Source: Armatimonadota bacterium
GTDB taxonomy: Bacteria; Bacteroidota; Ignavibacteria; OLB7
NCBI GenBank assembly: GCA_020850315.1
Contig: JADZEY010000003.1
Coordinates: 1-43,909, forward strand
Direction: 5' to 3'
DNA length: 43,909 nucleotides
In this document: in pieces, positions 32,450 through 40,127 of the stretch
Position numbering within the stretch: the first letter of the stretch is position 1
Layout of the letters: each line of letters opens with the position of its first letter
Made by a program: the position numbers and the translations under genes
Notes under the pieces: generated by a model
The model's database searches: none
What the model was told of the DNA's origin: nothing
The model's input: only the letters and a program-made list of their open reading frames with translations

Positions 32450-34657
32450 TTACGGCATCTTCACTATCCTTCCGTGAATCACCTCTGCGCCGGCATGGAT
32501 CCGATAGAGGTACGTCCCTGCTGCAAGGGGGGTAACGTCCAAGTGCTGCCGGTACTGGCCAGCAGAAAGATCATCATCAAGAACCGTTTGCAGATAGCCC
32601 CCTGTAAGGCTGCATAGCTCAATCGTTACGTGAGTCGGGCGGTTTATTTGAAGCTGGAACGTGGCATAGGTGGTGCAAGGATTCGGAGCCGCCACCGCAG
32701 TACGAATCGCAGCACTCAACATGGTGGCCGATGACGTTGGTTCCTGAACAATATCTATCCCCAAATCGCTTGTATCGGCAATGCCCCAGAATGCTCCGTT
32801 GCCATTGGTTCCCAAGTAAACTTTCTCGCCAGTTGGGTGGGCGGCCACTGCGGTGACGGCCCAGTTACCTAACATCATCCCACCACGCCGCCAAGCAAGC
32901 CCCAGGTTGTCGCTGTACCACACGCCTTGCCGGGTTCCTGCGTACAATCTTCCGAACGGATCGCGGGCAAGGGAGAAAATGGTATCGGTGGGAAGCGCGT
33001 CGGTGATATGAGTCCAGCCAGTGAGGTATTCATCCATCACATAGACCCCGGCCTCGGTCCCAATCACTATGGCTCCGCTGTTTAACACCTCCATTGCAAG
33101 GATTGCGCGGTTCCCTATTGAGTTGGTGACGCTGAACCAATGCCTCCCCTCATCTTCGGAAATCAGAACGCCCTCGCTTGTTAGACAGATTCCCCTGCCG
33201 TAATTGTCGAATCGAAGTGTGCGGACGGTCTTGCCGTGGAGTTCGCTTCCGGGTGTCCGCCATGTTAGCCCGCTGTTGGTGGAGTAATAAACTCCGTTGT
33301 TGATAGTGGTGGCCCAGATGTTGCTCCGTTTATCGGTAGTGAACCCCAACACAGGAACGGTGTTTGGCCCAAACGCGGCCCACGTAGCTCCGCCATCGGT
33401 TGACCGGAAGGAGGCGACTTCTGTTGAGACCGTTACCGCGCCTTGTTGATCGCAGAGAAGAGAGCGAACGGTATCCCCTTTCAGTGAGGCCAGCTTGCGG
33501 CACGCTGCGCCGGCCGGTGCCGAGACCCACAAACCCAGTCCGTTAGTGCCAATAAATACTGCTCCGGTGGTGCTTCGTGGATCGGGGGTGATGGCGCTAA
33601 TCTGTGCGTTGGATAGCTGCCCCGGAAGTATCTGTGATAGATCGGGCGATGCAACGCTCCACGTCAACCCATCATCGGTTGAGGAATAGATTGCTTTGCT
33701 GGACATTGCATACATCCATCCGCCGGAGGCGCGGTACAACAACGAAGGATTCTCCTTTGGGTTGTTCGATGCTTGAAGCCAAGATGATCCTTTATCTGGC
33801 GAGCGATAGATAGACCCATGATAGTTGGTGATAACATCCCCTTTCCCATTTACCACTATCCCATTGAAGGAGACAACCGCGGTGTGCTGCATCGGGACAA
33901 TCGTCCATGTGTTGCCATCATCACTACTGCTAAACAAGCTGCATCCCCGCTGTGCATTGGCATCGGTTACGCCCAGGATGATATAGCCGGACGGATGAAC
34001 CGCAATGGAAGGAACGCGTGTGTTCACCATAAACGGTTCAATCTCCCTCCATGATGCCCCGTTGTCATCGGAAATACCAAGTCCGCCACCGGTGTTACGG
34101 CCATCACTTTGGTATTCCAACCCCGCAAGCAAACGCCCGGTGGGGGTGAACGCAAAGCAGAGAATGCGAGGCTGGCGTACCCCGATAACTGCACGTTTCC
34201 ATGTGCTGCCGTAGTCTTCCGAACGGAGCACAACGCCATCGGCGGTTCCGGCAACAAGGCGGTTCGTGGAGTCGCGGCCAAAGGAGCGAATGGCAGCACC
34301 ACCCACATCAACGTTCTTCCAAGAACTTCCGCCATTGGTGCTTCGGAACAATGCCGAAGGCGTTGAAGCCAGGATGATCCCACCAGGAAGATGAGCAACA
34401 GCAAGGATGCTACGCGCGGCGGGGTCGTGAAGTATCCGCTGCCATGTTTTGCCGTGATCGGTGGAGCGGAACAACCCCTGGCTGATGTCGCCAAGAAATA
34501 TATTCCCCAACTCGTCGCCGGCAATGCAGGAAGGAGTTGCGGCCGCTGCATCAGCGAACTGGATCCACGATTGTGCGGCAACGGAATCGGGAAGCCAACA
34601 ACAAAGAACAATGACTATTGGCAGGGGAAGGCGCAAACGGATAGGGATACGGTGCAT
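32450..34657 (-). CDS. Secreted Asp-box (BNR) propeller protein with T9SS-like C-terminal domain
   Basis: 735 residues with a signal peptide (MHRIPIRLRLPLPIVIVLCCW, cut near VAAQS). About eleven Asp-boxes of the S-D-x-G-x-T-W type (STDHGKTW, STNGGSSW, SEDYGSTW, SDDNGASW, SSDDGNTW, SPDKGSSW, STDDGLTW, STDGGATW, STNSGLTW, SEDEGRHW, SDNLGLAW) suggest one ten-bladed, sortilin-like or two smaller beta-propellers. The last 80 residues (AAPNPCTTYATFQLQIN ... LAAGTYLYRIHAGAEVIHGRIVKMP) form a T9SS type A-like sorting domain. There is no enzyme active site. A surface or secreted binding protein is the likely role. It ends at the hairpin 32379-32422. Confidence 0.9.
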   Translation of the reverse strand: MHRIPIRLRLPLPIVIVLCCWLPDSVAAQSWIQFADAAAATPSCIAGDELGNIFLGDISQGLFRSTDHGKTWQRILHDPAARSILAVAHLPGGIILASTPSALFRSTNGGSSWKNVDVGGAAIRSFGRDSTNRLVAGTADGVVLRSEDYGSTWKRAVIGVRQPRILCFAFTPTGRLLAGLEYQSDGRNTGGGLGISDDNGASWREIEPFMVNTRVPSIAVHPSGYIILGVTDANAQRGCSLFSSSDDGNTWTIVPMQHTAVVSFNGIVVNGKGDVITNYHGSIYRSPDKGSSWLQASNNPKENPSLLYRASGGWMYAMSSKAIYSSTDDGLTWSVASPDLSQILPGQLSNAQISAITPDPRSTTGAVFIGTNGLGLWVSAPAGAACRKLASLKGDTVRSLLCDQQGAVTVSTEVASFRSTDGGATWAAFGPNTVPVLGFTTDKRSNIWATTINNGVYYSTNSGLTWRTPGSELHGKTVRTLRFDNYGRGICLTSEGVLISEDEGRHWFSVTNSIGNRAILAMEVLNSGAIVIGTEAGVYVMDEYLTGWTHITDALPTDTIFSLARDPFGRLYAGTRQGVWYSDNLGLAWRRGGMMLGNWAVTAVAAHPTGEKVYLGTNGNGAFWGIADTSDLGIDIVQEPTSSATMLSAAIRTAVAAPNPCTTYATFQLQINRPTHVTIELCSLTGGYLQTVLDDDLSAGQYRQHLDVTPLAAGTYLYRIHAGAEVIHGRIVKMP

Positions 34658-35635: not shown

Positions 35636-35666
35636 ACGCGGCGGATGAATCGTTCACCCGCCGCGT
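35636..35666 (-). terminator. Intrinsic terminator of the sigma/anti-sigma/lipoprotein operon
   Basis: ACGCGGCGG (35636-35644) pairs perfectly with CCGCCGCGT (35658-35666), with further TGAA/TTCA pairing inside. On the minus strand the stem is followed by TTTGTTTGC, a T-rich tail, 30 bases past the lipoprotein stop. It is a classical rho-independent terminator. Confidence 0.85.
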
Positions 35667-35695: not shown

Positions 35696-36415
35696 CTAAT
35701 AGCCAAAACGCAATCGGAACTGGAAGGTGATCTGTTTCTCGCACGATGGGGTTGTAGTGTCCTTCACAACAAAATTTGCTTTCAGCATCCCCGTGGCGAT
35801 TCGCCGCGCGCCGTCAAGTTCTTCTATCATAAAAGTCCCAACGTTGTTAGGCCATGAAGTAATGATTGCGGTTTCAGCATTGTAGTATGGCGTACCCGGC
35901 ACTTCATAATCTAACCGCAACCCGGGCCCTTCGTAGGGGTTTTTCTTTAGGGCAATCGTTGCTCCCTGCTGCAGCAGCAGTTCGGGGATATTCATCTGAA
36001 ATTGCTTTGGCCACCGCCCCTGCCAATGCAATGCTGTTGCTTGACTGATTGCCTCGGGCAGCTGCGCCTGCATATTCAAGCTCAACAACACCTTATTGTT
36101 TGCCGACGGAGTGGTTTGCCGCCACCATAAGGTTAAGGCAACTTCCAGCGAATCGCTTGTTGCAGTATTGCCCCCAGAAGAATCGCTGCCGTAGTAGAAC
36201 ATCAGCTGGCATAGATTCTGTGAGGAACGAACCGCAGACCCTGGGCAGGATAAACAGGGCTGCTCGGTAACTACCGAAGTAGTAACCGAATCACGATTGG
36301 GAAGATGAATTACCTTGCCAGTGTCGCTATCCACCGGGACATCGCGGCATCCGGCAATCATGGTTACCCATGCAAGCAATAGCACCGTAGCGAAGCCTTT
36401 AGCACTCCTTACCAT
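35696..36415 (-). CDS. Lipoprotein, function unknown, last gene of ECF sigma operon
   Basis: 239 residues from the ATG at 36415. The lipobox is MIAGC (residues 19-23). A short stretch with Cys pair PCLSCPG follows. The remainder is beta-rich with aromatic residues (LTLWWRQTT, LHWQGRWPKQFQMNIPELLLQQG, YYNAETAIITSWPNN, MEIEELDG-like FMIEELDGARRIATG) ending QITFQFRLRFGY. No family recognised. Its start overlaps the stop of the anti-sigma-like gene by seven bases, so it is translationally coupled to it. It is probably envelope-localised and part of whatever the sigma unit senses. Confidence 0.8.
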   Translation of the reverse strand: MVRSAKGFATVLLLAWVTMIAGCRDVPVDSDTGKVIHLPNRDSVTTSVVTEQPCLSCPGSAVRSSQNLCQLMFYYGSDSSGGNTATSDSLEVALTLWWRQTTPSANNKVLLSLNMQAQLPEAISQATALHWQGRWPKQFQMNIPELLLQQGATIALKKNPYEGPGLRLDYEVPGTPYYNAETAIITSWPNNVGTFMIEELDGARRIATGMLKANFVVKDTTTPSCEKQITFQFRLRFGY

Positions 36416-37827
36416 ATCAGTTTCGACATATTGAACTCTGTCCCTAACGTCGCACCCCAGCGTCCGGAGAACAGGCGTTGATTATTGAACATATATACCA
36501 GCGAGCTGAACTCGAACCCCGGCGAAAGCGCGACTCCATCGGCCAGCTGCACCGGCGCGCCAAGCCGGAACCGCACCAACGGCCCCGCTGATGTTGCCCC
36601 GCCAGTAACTTGGAAATAGAGTCGTGCTGGAATTGAGGGGATAGCCCCAAAATCGTAGCGTGCCGCCAAACCGCCCCACGTGTACCGGGGTTGTTGGTCA
36701 ATCGCCAACGTGTCGTGGCGGTTAATCAGCAGGGTTTGCGCGTACCGCTCCACACCAACTTCAGCCCCCAGATGCCACGCATCGCTTAGCTGCACATACG
36801 CACCCGCCGCAAAATTTTCTGGAAGGGAGTAAGGGCCCGATAACGCTTGGGTTGGCACAGCATTCCGGGCAAACTGATACCGCACCTCGGTATGTATCAC
36901 CACCCCGTCATCTTGCTTGGTGTTGCGGGAAAGCGGGGAAGAAGATTGCAGAAGCGTTGATGGAAGTTCCGCAACCGCCTGCGGTGTTGTGCCAGTCAAT
37001 TTTGAGAAAGTAGCCTGTTCGGGCGGCAACGCCAGCGCAAGTTGGGTGATGCGGGCTGCCGTATCCGTCGCTTGCTGGGCTGTGCTGCTTGGGGATGATC
37101 CATTGTTCAGCGTTAGCTCGGCAGCATTTTTTTCACCACCGAACATTGCCCCTGCTCTATCGCTTCCATTTGGGGTTGTTGGGCGGCCTCCGTCGGTAGT
37201 GGTTGGGGAAGGCAGATAGACATACTTGATACGCTCCCGTATCTGTGGCTTGGGGGATGTGGCTGTTGGGGCGATTGCCGCCGTTGCTGGCTGCCCAGTT
37301 ATTGTTGCTTTGCTCTGGCTATCTACGCCGGAAGTAAGCACGTTCAGCTGAACATCTGCTGTGGGCAATGCGCTGTTTGTTGCTTGGCCCGAAGTCCGGT
37401 TTTGGGTGGTGTTCCTACCTGCACCATTGGAGGGCAACACAACCAGTGCTTCATTGCGAACTGCGCCATCCTCTCCCCCCCGTAGCATCAACCAAACAGT
37501 GCTGGCAGCAAGCAATGCGCCCAGAACAAAACTGCTGGCCATCAACCAGAAACGGTTCCCCCCGGATGTTGTCGCCACTGCTGCCGCAGCGTTGTTGGAG
37601 TCGGTTGCGGCAGGGACCAGCCCGATCCCGGCCAGCAACACATGCTCTAGGTGCGCAGGCGGAGCAAACGCTTCGCGGTCGGAGTGGACAGCATCGGCGA
37701 TATTGATGAACTGCCGTAACTCCGAGCGAAGTTCTGGGTGCTGCGCCATTTCTTGGAACAGCCCTTGCTCAACGGCACTGTCCAGTGTGCCATCAATGAA
37801 CTCCAAGATCAATTCGCTTTTGCTCAT
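36409..37827 (-). CDS. Anti-sigma-like membrane protein with C-terminal beta-barrel-like domain
   Basis: 472 residues. The N-terminus (MSKSELILEFIDGTLDSAVEQ ... PELRSELRQF) resembles the cytoplasmic sigma-binding part of anti-sigma factors but lacks the zinc HxxxCxxC motif. One helix, WLMASSFVLGALLAASTVWLML (94-115), spans the inner membrane. A Ser/Thr/Ala/Pro-rich region of about 190 residues follows. The last 155 residues alternate polar and apolar (AAGAYVQLSDAWHLGAEVGVERY, WGGLAARYDFGA, ARLYFQVTGGATSAG, ALSPGFEFSSLVYMF) and end in FNMSKLIW with a terminal Trp, as in small outer-membrane barrels. It follows the sigma gene by 87 bases. Its stop overlaps the lipoprotein start. Confidence 0.75.
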   Translation of the reverse strand: MSKSELILEFIDGTLDSAVEQGLFQEMAQHPELRSELRQFINIADAVHSDREAFAPPAHLEHVLLAGIGLVPAATDSNNAAAAVATTSGGNRFWLMASSFVLGALLAASTVWLMLRGGEDGAVRNEALVVLPSNGAGRNTTQNRTSGQATNSALPTADVQLNVLTSGVDSQSKATITGQPATAAIAPTATSPKPQIRERIKYVYLPSPTTTDGGRPTTPNGSDRAGAMFGGEKNAAELTLNNGSSPSSTAQQATDTAARITQLALALPPEQATFSKLTGTTPQAVAELPSTLLQSSSPLSRNTKQDDGVVIHTEVRYQFARNAVPTQALSGPYSLPENFAAGAYVQLSDAWHLGAEVGVERYAQTLLINRHDTLAIDQQPRYTWGGLAARYDFGAIPSIPARLYFQVTGGATSAGPLVRFRLGAPVQLADGVALSPGFEFSSLVYMFNNQRLFSGRWGATLGTEFNMSKLIW

Positions 37828-37914
37828 AGTCTGTCGTTGAAATGCCGTGTGTCGAAATCGTGTGCAATGCCGGTAACGGGGGCTGCAATGCGGTAGAAGA
37901 TCAGAAGGTTCATC

Positions 37915-38601
37915 TCACTTTGATTTCCGTCGTGATTCTTCAGTGTTTTCTTCCAGGTAGGGGGCCAAAATCTTCCGAAGTTTTTCCTTTGCACGGAAGA
38001 TGTGGATTTTCACGCTGGCCAAACTTTGGCCGGTCACTTCTGCAATCTCCTGATAGCTTAGCCCATCATATTCCCTCAGCACAAACGCTTCGCGGTGGCT
38101 GGTGGGAAGAAGCTCCAAAGCAGTTTTCACCAACTCGGCCAGCTCAATGTTTTCGTGATTCGGTTGATACACCACTTGGTGATAATCTTCCACCGCCGTT
38201 GTTGGCTTTTGGTCGCGGATAGCGTTCAAACAAAGGTTGCGTGCGGTGGTGAAAATATAGGCCGAAACGTTTGCCACCGTCCGCTGGCTGTTGGTGCATT
38301 GCTGGTAAATCCGCAGGAATGTTTCCTGGAAAATGTCGTTTGCCCGCTCCCGATCCCCAAGCATCCGCAACGCATACGCATAGATGCGGCCACGGTAGCG
38401 CGAATAGAGTTCGGCAAAAGCATCCTTCTCGCCACGGCACAGCAGCGAAAAAAGCTCTTCGTCGTTATGGTTTGTGTACGCCTTCAACAATGCAGAACAA
38501 TCATACGGCCATTGCAGTTGGCCGTCCAACACCGTAGATAGGGTGAAGTTACGGGAGCACGATGTTGCGGCTTGCTCCGCTCCTGATAGATGTGGCCCCA
38601 T
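37915..38601 (-). CDS. RNA polymerase ECF sigma-70 factor
   Basis: Directs RNA polymerase to promoters. Region 2 is AELYSRYRGRIYAYALRMLGDRERANDIFQETFLRIYQ; region 4 is LPTSHREAFVLREYDGLSYQEIAEVTGQSLASVKIHIFRAKEKLRKIL, complete with its helix-turn-helix. The ATG at 38601 gives 228 residues, but the first 35 are unlike the family. This ATG touches the rtcB terminator, leaving no room for a promoter, so in-frame GTG 38532 or TTG 38490 (about 192 residues, usual ECF size) may be the true start. Followed at 87 bases by the anti-sigma-like gene, and then a lipoprotein, it is the usual autoregulated layout of envelope-responsive ECF operons. Confidence 0.92.
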   Translation of the reverse strand: MGPHLSGAEQAATSCSRNFTLSTVLDGQLQWPYDCSALLKAYTNHNDEELFSLLCRGEKDAFAELYSRYRGRIYAYALRMLGDRERANDIFQETFLRIYQQCTNSQRTVANVSAYIFTTARNLCLNAIRDQKPTTAVEDYHQVVYQPNHENIELAELVKTALELLPTSHREAFVLREYDGLSYQEIAEVTGQSLASVKIHIFRAKEKLRKILAPYLEENTEESRRKSK

Positions 38602-38604
38602 ACA

Positions 38605-38632
38605 GGCCGCCCTACCTTGCGATAGGGCGGCC
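38605..38632 (-). terminator. Perfect 10-bp hairpin after rtcB
   Basis: GGCCGCCCTA (38605-38614) is the exact reverse complement of TAGGGCGGCC (38623-38632), with an 8-base loop. It lies just past the rtcB stop and just before the annotated start of the ECF sigma gene. It should terminate rtcB and insulate the sigma operon. Confidence 0.8.
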
Positions 38633-38641
38633 TTCGGTCTG

Positions 38642-40066
38642 TTAGTCTTCCGATTTTCCGTCGCTGGACATCAGAACGATTTTGGGTTTGAAGATTGCGA
38701 TTGGCTCAATCAAGTCGGTTTGCAAAGCCATCACTTGGTTGATGTCCTTATACACCTGCGGCGATTCGTCCATCCCACCAGCCAGAAGCTCAATCCCACG
38801 CTGGCTCAACCACGCATCCCGTTCCTTTTTGGGGATCGTCTGCATCGCTTGCTTACGGCTCATCACGCGGCCCGCGCCGTGGCTTGCGCTGTTCAGCGAT
38901 GCATCGTTTCCCAAGCCGCGAACGATGTAGGAATTATGCCCTTGCGACCCCGGAACAATCCCCAGCACCCCAGCGTGTGCCGGCGTTGCGCCTTTGCGGT
39001 GAACGTACACTTGCTTCCCTTTCCATTCCTCCAGCCACGCAAAATTGTGGTGGTTTTCCACCTGAAGCAATGGCTTCAGCCCAAGCCGTTTTGCCAATGC
39101 ACGGTGAATAGTGTGGTGGCAAGCCGAAGCAAACTTCCCCGCCATGTTCATGCTGATCCAATACTCTTGCCCCGCCTCGCTCCCCATTTCCAACCATGCA
39201 AGGTGGCGCAGTTGGTCGGGGAGCTTGGTGAGCTGCCGGGCAAGGCGCGAGTAATGGTCGGCAATCTGCGCCCCCACACCACGGCTTCCCGAGTGCGACA
39301 TGAACGCAAGGTAGTGGCCGGCATCAATGCCAAGCAGCGGAGCCTTTTCTGCAGAGATTTCCAACACTCCAGCATCCACAAAATGGTTGCCGCTTCCGCT
39401 GGTTCCAAGCTGGGCGTAGGCCTTCTCCTTCAGGTGGCGTAGCATTTTGGTGGCCTCCCAATCTTCATCGTCCATCACCGCGTGCTGGCGGCGTTCATTC
39501 CCTTTGAACCCGACACCAACGCCAAACCGTGTCTCCTGGCGCATGGCCTGCTTGATTTCTTGGCGGCGGCTTGCGTTGGTGAACGGATCGGTGCGGTCAA
39601 TTGGGTAGATGCTCATCATCATTCGGCAGGCGATGTCAACGCCAACCATGTACGGGGCCACCGCGTTCTCCAACGCCACCACGCCACCAATCGGAATGCC
39701 ATAGCCAACGTGTGCGTCGGGCATCAGCGCGCCGGCAACCGTCACCGGAAGCCGCATGGCGTTGTGTAGTTGGGCAATGGCTTCAGGTTCAATAATCTCA
39801 CGCCCCCAAATTGGTGCCTCCAACGGCTGATCCCGAATGACGTTTTTCAGTTGCACGTGCAGACCTTTGCAGGCAACAGCAAGCTCTTGAAAAATCCCTC
39901 CGTCAACGTCGTACAACTCTGGCGCAGCTTTCACTTGTTCCAGCGTTTCTACGATTGCGGGCTCTGCGGCTCCGCTTTCCGCCATGTTCTGTGCGATGCG
40001 TAACGCGGCCCCAATAATTCCCCCCTGTGGCCAGCCGTTAGCGATTAATGTTTTTGAAATGCTCAT
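38642..40066 (-). CDS. rtcB: RNA-splicing ligase RtcB
   Basis: Joins RNA 2',3'-cyclic-phosphate or 3'-phosphate ends to 5'-hydroxyls, using GTP and Mn2+, in RNA repair or tRNA splicing. 474 residues from the ATG at 40066 (MSISKTLIANGWPQGG); extra codons to 40120 are not needed. Metal and GMP motifs are GALMPDAHVGYGIPIGGVVA, GVDIACRM (usually GVDIGCGM), SGNHFVDAGVLE, MSHSGSRGVG, VHRKGATPA and SASHGAGRVMSRK with the guanylated His. The ACRM variant points to a divergent RtcB subclass. No archease gene is next to it. It stands alone, with a terminator downstream and an unusual leader upstream. Confidence 0.95.
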   Translation of the reverse strand: MSISKTLIANGWPQGGIIGAALRIAQNMAESGAAEPAIVETLEQVKAAPELYDVDGGIFQELAVACKGLHVQLKNVIRDQPLEAPIWGREIIEPEAIAQLHNAMRLPVTVAGALMPDAHVGYGIPIGGVVALENAVAPYMVGVDIACRMMMSIYPIDRTDPFTNASRRQEIKQAMRQETRFGVGVGFKGNERRQHAVMDDEDWEATKMLRHLKEKAYAQLGTSGSGNHFVDAGVLEISAEKAPLLGIDAGHYLAFMSHSGSRGVGAQIADHYSRLARQLTKLPDQLRHLAWLEMGSEAGQEYWISMNMAGKFASACHHTIHRALAKRLGLKPLLQVENHHNFAWLEEWKGKQVYVHRKGATPAHAGVLGIVPGSQGHNSYIVRGLGNDASLNSASHGAGRVMSRKQAMQTIPKKERDAWLSQRGIELLAGGMDESPQVYKDINQVMALQTDLIEPIAIFKPKIVLMSSDGKSED

Positions 40067-40127
40067 GGATGTGTGTGTTGTGGTGATAAATGCATTCAAG
40101 ATATTGTTAACAGCGTGCATATTTCTA

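Follow-up and report, generated by a model that had tools for sequence, protein, structure and literature searches.

A putative membrane-bridging anti-sigma factor with a class I head and a predicted OmpA-like barrel in Kapaibacteria and Ignavibacteria

Can one polypeptide hold an ECF sigma factor in the cytoplasm and also sit in the outer membrane? The question is raised by a three-gene operon on the minus strand of the window (the whole stretch of 43,909 nucleotides analysed here), in which an ECF sigma ORF is followed by an ORF of 472 amino acids and then by a lipoprotein ORF of 239 amino acids (Table 1). A preliminary description, made from the sequence, had placed the 472-aa protein gene after the sigma gene and coupled it to the lipoprotein gene by a 7-base overlap. 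The placement is correct and the linkage is conserved among relatives; the overlap is exactly 7 bases (36409-36415), and the lipoprotein coupling is likewise conserved in the family. Elsewhere in the window, the product of 32450-34657 is a BNR/Sortilin-type propeller protein of 735 aa; its C-terminus may be a sorting domain for type IX secretion, a match under Pfam's cut-off.

Table 1. Features of the sigma/anti-sigma/lipoprotein operon, in window coordinates
Feature	Position	Strand	Basis
ECF sigma factor ORF	37915-38601	minus	longest ORF, 228 aa; Pfam, sigma tree
472-aa anti-sigma/barrel protein	36409-37827	minus	ORF, homologue set, AlphaFold2 model
Lipoprotein ORF, 239 aa, third operon gene	35696-36415	minus	lipobox IAG-C, mature N-terminus CRDVPVDSDTGK
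Putative ECF promoter, CGTAACTT-N13-GTGTT-GGAC	38524-38553	minus	upstream of sigma/anti-sigma/lipoprotein operon; boxes conserved
Terminator-like hairpin, 14 pairs	35636-35666	minus	closes operon
Residues 1-70, predicted class I anti-sigma domain, four helices	37618-37827	minus	AlphaFold2 helices, Foldseek matches
Residues 92-117, predicted single inner-membrane helix	37477-37554	minus	hydropathy and model
Residues 118-308, predicted disordered periplasmic linker, Thr/Ala/Ser/Pro-rich	36904-37476	minus	pLDDT
Residues 309-472, predicted 8-stranded outer-membrane beta-barrel	36412-36903	minus	pLDDT, structure matches, strand alternation

The first ORF encodes a true ECF factor by its Pfam matches (Sigma70_r2, 5.5e-17; Sigma70_r4_2, 8.2e-17), with an N-terminal extension that is absent from many sigma homologues. 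Because a conserved promoter falls within this longest ORF (38553-38524), a TTG at 38490 or 38487 is preferred to the ATG at 38601 and is probably the real start, giving a protein of about 191 aa. A near-perfect inverted repeat, GGCCGCCCTA...TAGGGCGGCC, lies within 38601-38640, the gap that separates the sigma ORF from rtcB (38642-40120); it resembles an rtcB terminator and extends to the first ATG of the sigma ORF, which likewise speaks against this ATG as the start. The promoter element, TGTAAC-N16-TGTTA, recurs upstream of sigma genes, its boxes conserved across four divergent loci: among 61 regions upstream of related sigma genes, GTAAC is found in 53 (8.45 expected from control windows of the same loci) and TGTAAC in 42 (3.6 expected from the same control). 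Since this conserved promoter stands upstream of the sigma gene, the operon is probably autoregulated by its own sigma factor.

The 472-aa protein has no real match in Pfam, and a PDB profile search with the full-length family alignment gave nothing useful; its parts were recognised in an AlphaFold2 model built from 56 homologues. The model opens with a helical head (residues 1-67, pLDDT mostly 82-97) whose helices (3-12, 17-29, 31-54 and 58-67) form a three-helix bundle plus a fourth helix, and four helices are what define class I anti-sigma domains (ASDI) (PMC7406223). Modelled alone, the head reached a moderate confidence, with block pLDDT values of 71-82 for residues 1-50, and retrieved class I anti-sigma domains in 10 of 10 Foldseek PDB matches (MucA, RskA, RsiW, RslA and ChrR); the E-values are individually about 1 or more, and the argument lies in every match coming from one family. 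Structure match scores for the lone head were Z 7.2 with MucA, 7.1 with RsiW and 5.2 with RseA. Sequence profiles point the same way: the family profile placed RseA first, RsiW third and DdvA fifth among PDB sequences, none significant singly; RseA_N matched 15 and zf-HC2 16 of the 56 family heads (E <= 0.1); and an NCBIfam anti-sigma model matched the head at E 8.7e-7, under that model's curated cut-off. Asp12, conserved in at least 90% of the family, occupies the same alignment position as the MDGE aspartate of RseA (D11), mutation of which abolishes RseA activity (PMC7406223). By its modelled fold the family head is thus class I, of the RseA/MucA/RsiW/ChrR type, and we strongly infer from fold and gene pairing together that it sequesters the sigma factor. 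The four-helix head is shared with RseA, MucA, RsiW, RskA and ChrR; domains of this class bind regions 2 and 4 of their sigma factors. To our knowledge, none of these proteins ends in an outer-membrane barrel.

Behind the head, the model contains a single helix at residues 92-117, coinciding with a hydropathy peak at 93-111, and from there to residue 302 the pLDDT is mostly below 50. The sigma-binding-type N-terminus, single inner-membrane helix and disordered linker of about 190 residues (118-308) that had been read from the sequence are all borne out by the model. Across the 56 homologues the linker varies from 106 to 258 residues, with a median of 140.

The C-terminal strands (residues 311-466) are modelled with a pLDDT mostly of 90-97, and the structures they match best are the Legionella Dot/Icm porin III (Z 16.0), NspA (14.8), OprF (14.7) and OmpA (14.5); among the top 25 or so, natural or designed transmembrane barrels account for nearly every match. 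A soluble C-terminal fold is rejected on the model and these matches, and the earlier reading of an outer-membrane-type 8-stranded barrel is upheld, the model having given a barrel and not the soluble non-barrel fold that would have spoken against it. The strands alternate hydrophobic and polar faces with a contrast of 0.91, against 0.48 for shuffled columns (0 of 5000 as high), and the conserved residues R316, E356, E360, R419 and E439 all lie on the polar face, as is expected of a small OmpA-like lumen. The predicted domain also fits eight antiparallel strands with a C-terminal aromatic signature. The terminal Trp noted in the preliminary description is present, but it is specific to the window protein and its closest relatives, most homologues ending in Phe. 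The fold and size are those of OmpA, NspA and the OprF N-domain (Pfam OMP_b-brl), from which the window protein differs in that a tether links its barrel to a head that would act as a regulator in the cytoplasm. The rival view, that the barrel stays in the periplasm as the sensor domain of an otherwise ordinary transmembrane anti-sigma factor and is not inserted in the outer membrane, is very improbable. In its favour, matches to the model include soluble PsbO barrels (Z about 10), and Pfam's outer-membrane barrel domain is found in only 4 of 56 members; against it, the leading matches are transmembrane, the hydrophobic face is opposed to a conserved charged one, 49 of 73 homologues end in F, W or Y, as is common in BAM substrates, and even the shortest linker is sufficient to cross the periplasm.

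The architecture and its pairing are conserved. Of 61 genomes searched, comprising that of the window and 60 relatives, 24 encode homologues of the 472-aa protein, frequently in multiple copies, and an ECF gene lies directly upstream of 59 of the 62 homologues recovered. In a reverse test, the sigma profile alone was used as bait against a collection of 84,980 genomes and the best 80 loci were kept; as the sigma factor was the sole bait, what lies downstream is independent of anti-sigma sequence. Among these best 80 loci, a homologue directly follows the sigma gene in all 79 with enough downstream sequence. The 73 complete homologues carry the head in 73 cases and the barrel in 69, counts that are partly self-dependent, as most of the input to the head and barrel profiles came from the same loci; three of the four exceptions to the barrel profile are still about 410 aa long and end in GTEISF. 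The barrel-like domain is thus kept beside ECF sigma genes, and the unrelated, variable C-terminus that might have told against the preliminary description is not what the close family displays. Conservation across dozens of genomes rules out chance or artefact, and scans of viral contigs for a viral or mobile origin gave no relative. Most records of the relatives come from metagenome-assembled genomes, under the labels Chlorobiota, Ignavibacteria, Bacteroidetes or Kapaibacterium, the last placed in the phylum Bacteroidota, and the family is widespread in Kapaibacteria/Ignavibacteria. We found no paper joining anti-sigma factors with Kapabacteria.

The window genome itself has about 29 ECF genes, and heads of this kind are found on the anti-sigma partners of many of them. 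Beyond the window protein, three partners (L031, L301 and L307) are picked up by the barrel profile, and a fourth (L303) also has a barrel-like end; the remaining partners are short or have other C-termini, as do some more distant same-genome paralogues carrying this kind of head. Because the same kind of head occurs with differing C-termini among the ECF partners of one genome, the head is a platform, and in the subfamily of the window protein its partner is consistently the barrel. Another C-terminal partner is seen at L294 (G000 C103), where the same kind of head (E 4e-13) stands on an ORF of about 600 aa without a recognised barrel.

The same layout was reportedly published for Bacteroides by Pardue et al. 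in 2024, as the Dma family. The claim in the preliminary description that no anti-sigma factor of this architecture had been described therefore falls: Dma proteins begin with an anti-sigma domain, continue through a transmembrane helix and a long disordered tether, and end in a beta-barrel (Pardue et al. 2026, PMC13088901), a four-part definition that the window protein fits by its model and its head and barrel matches. The dma genes adjoin ECF21 sigma genes, dma2 lies in a three-gene operon, and deletion of dma2 in B. theta causes hypervesiculation that requires das2, while the signal and the mode of release are not settled in the Dma2 paper (PMC13088901). The likeness thus extends to an adjacent cognate ECF sigma gene, a three-gene operon and the phylum Bacteroidota (PMC13088901), and one might read the window pair as orthologous to the Dma/Das pairs already published from Bacteroides, a single family of one origin that has diverged. 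The comparison was made with Dma-like pairs of other Bacteroidota lineages, chosen by architecture and distinct from the named Bacteroides BT_4721/BT_1558; they include the Cytophagales protein of Bernardetia WP_338815782.1, and from phylum and architecture we infer that they belong to the published family. These proteins have short heads with a different motif, whereas the window head is class I. Aligned by hhalign, the heads of the two sets match with 0.3% probability and the barrels with 35% over 44 columns. The sigma factors paired with the Dma-like set form a clade separate from the window sigma (support 100/99), in a tree for which the tool warns of long branches at the Dma-like clade; the window sigma stands outside this clade, itself a putative ECF21 group. 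The TGTAAC element was absent upstream of the Dma-like set's sigma genes (0 of 18), and a lipoprotein-like ORF came next in 5 of 16 Dma-like operons, none with an SPLD-type start, so that the promoter motif and the lipoprotein partner with its N-terminal motif belong to the window family. Searches with the window family returned full-length members from that family's class alone, and in other classes only the head came up, mostly on shorter proteins; neither type was found at full length by searching with the other. Orthologous descent is on these grounds unlikely, and by its sequences the window family reads as a distinct variant of the Dma-type layout, set apart by its head and by the conserved lipoprotein gene beside it. 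Its history may have been either a second, independent fusion or a deep divergence in which the head was replaced.

At the 61 loci where the gene after the anti-sigma gene could be read, it encodes a lipoprotein in about 54 cases (50 by rule and four by eye), and it often overlaps the anti-sigma gene by a few bases. The mature N-terminus follows C-x(1-3)-P-[LITVS]-[DE] in 34 of 50 third-gene lipoproteins (for example CSSPLDLDVDR, CKNPTELDG and CTSPLDSDTPRK), usually in the form C-x-S-P-[LIT]-[DE], and in 1 of 34 other lipoprotein-like ORFs nearby, that one adjoining the third gene of L092. The window lipoprotein, which starts CRDVPVDSD, keeps the motif only loosely; it has no Pfam or NCBIfam family, and its sequence likeness is limited to lipoproteins of its own family. 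The bodies fall into several groups, some joined by weaker profile matches. One third-gene lipoprotein (L101:5742-6482) has a von Willebrand factor A domain (2.4e-15) after its C-x-S-P-L-D start, which its blastp-group relatives (L096, L097, L098 and L104) may share. The lipid-proximal peptide may therefore be conserved while the body varies. At L092:6945-7949 a second lipoprotein (CGETPVDSQTAN) stands in tandem after the third gene, with the same N-terminal motif. No description of a lipoprotein partner of this kind was found within the small body of accessible literature; this conserved partner and the upstream promoter are features new to this analysis.

The lipoprotein could be the actual sensor or plug, its lipid-proximal peptide binding the barrel, much as RcsF threads through OmpA/BamA, and its loss or mislocalisation freeing the sigma factor, with the barrel a mere anchor. 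Close and often overlapping gene linkage, together with a motif so rare in other lipoprotein-like ORFs of the same loci, makes this the strongest of the alternatives, one to be taken seriously if not preferred: the bodies fall into several groups, one with a VWA domain, and the motif could be a sorting signal instead of a binding site.

The order of the genes, the domain layout, the barrel fold, the class of the head and the conservation of the pairing, the promoter and the lipoprotein neighbour are direct results of computation. The explanation that we consider highly probable as a whole is a membrane-bridging anti-sigma factor with a class I head, a tether and an OmpA-like barrel, which releases its sigma factor upon a change in the outer membrane. 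The head would bind the sigma factor in the cytoplasm and keep it off RNA polymerase; the chain would cross the inner membrane once, pass through the periplasm as a disordered tether and anchor itself in the outer membrane by its own barrel. Such anchoring would make sigma release depend on the state of the outer membrane or on the lipoprotein partner. The trigger is a guess: insertion of the barrel might fail or be altered, the lipoprotein might be lost or gained, or tension might build up between the membranes. The tether might then be cleaved or distorted to release the sigma factor, conceivably through a proteolytic RseP-type step; the window genome has an RseP-type site-2 protease gene (E 4.6e-85). 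The released sigma factor would transcribe its own operon and little else. A wider proposal, which we put forward only tentatively, is that Bacteroidota evolved single-chain anti-sigma factors reaching across both membranes on at least two occasions, and that in Kapaibacteria/Ignavibacteria they combine a class I head and an OmpA-like barrel with a dedicated lipoprotein whose lipid-proximal S-P-[LIT]-[DE] peptide contacts the barrel or the tether and determines the signal. If true, a complete relay from outer membrane to promoter would be encoded within one operon. The Dma architecture extends beyond the gut Bacteroides from which it was described, and includes a version with the classical RseA-type head, a conserved lipoprotein partner and a promoter of its own. 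The lipoprotein is a testable candidate input, and the promoter motif makes the regulon searchable.

Such a search was made in the window genome. The strict family pattern GTAACTT-N13-GTGTT matched little beyond the operon itself, and looser matches with two mismatches showed no excess over a reversed-pattern control, for which reason a wider regulon is not claimed. Within this genome the exact motif has just two occurrences, one at the sigma operon and one 83 nt before the ATG of a gene for a 591-aa lipoprotein with six CarboxypepD_reg matches (G000 C27, L337:3563-5338, minus strand). A congener (L338) has the motif before the same CarboxypepD_reg lipoprotein gene, its spacer diverged and its boxes kept, and this gene is a possible second target of the sigma factor. 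At a further locus (L127), two TGTAAC elements lie 33 bases apart upstream of one sigma gene, possibly as tandem promoters.
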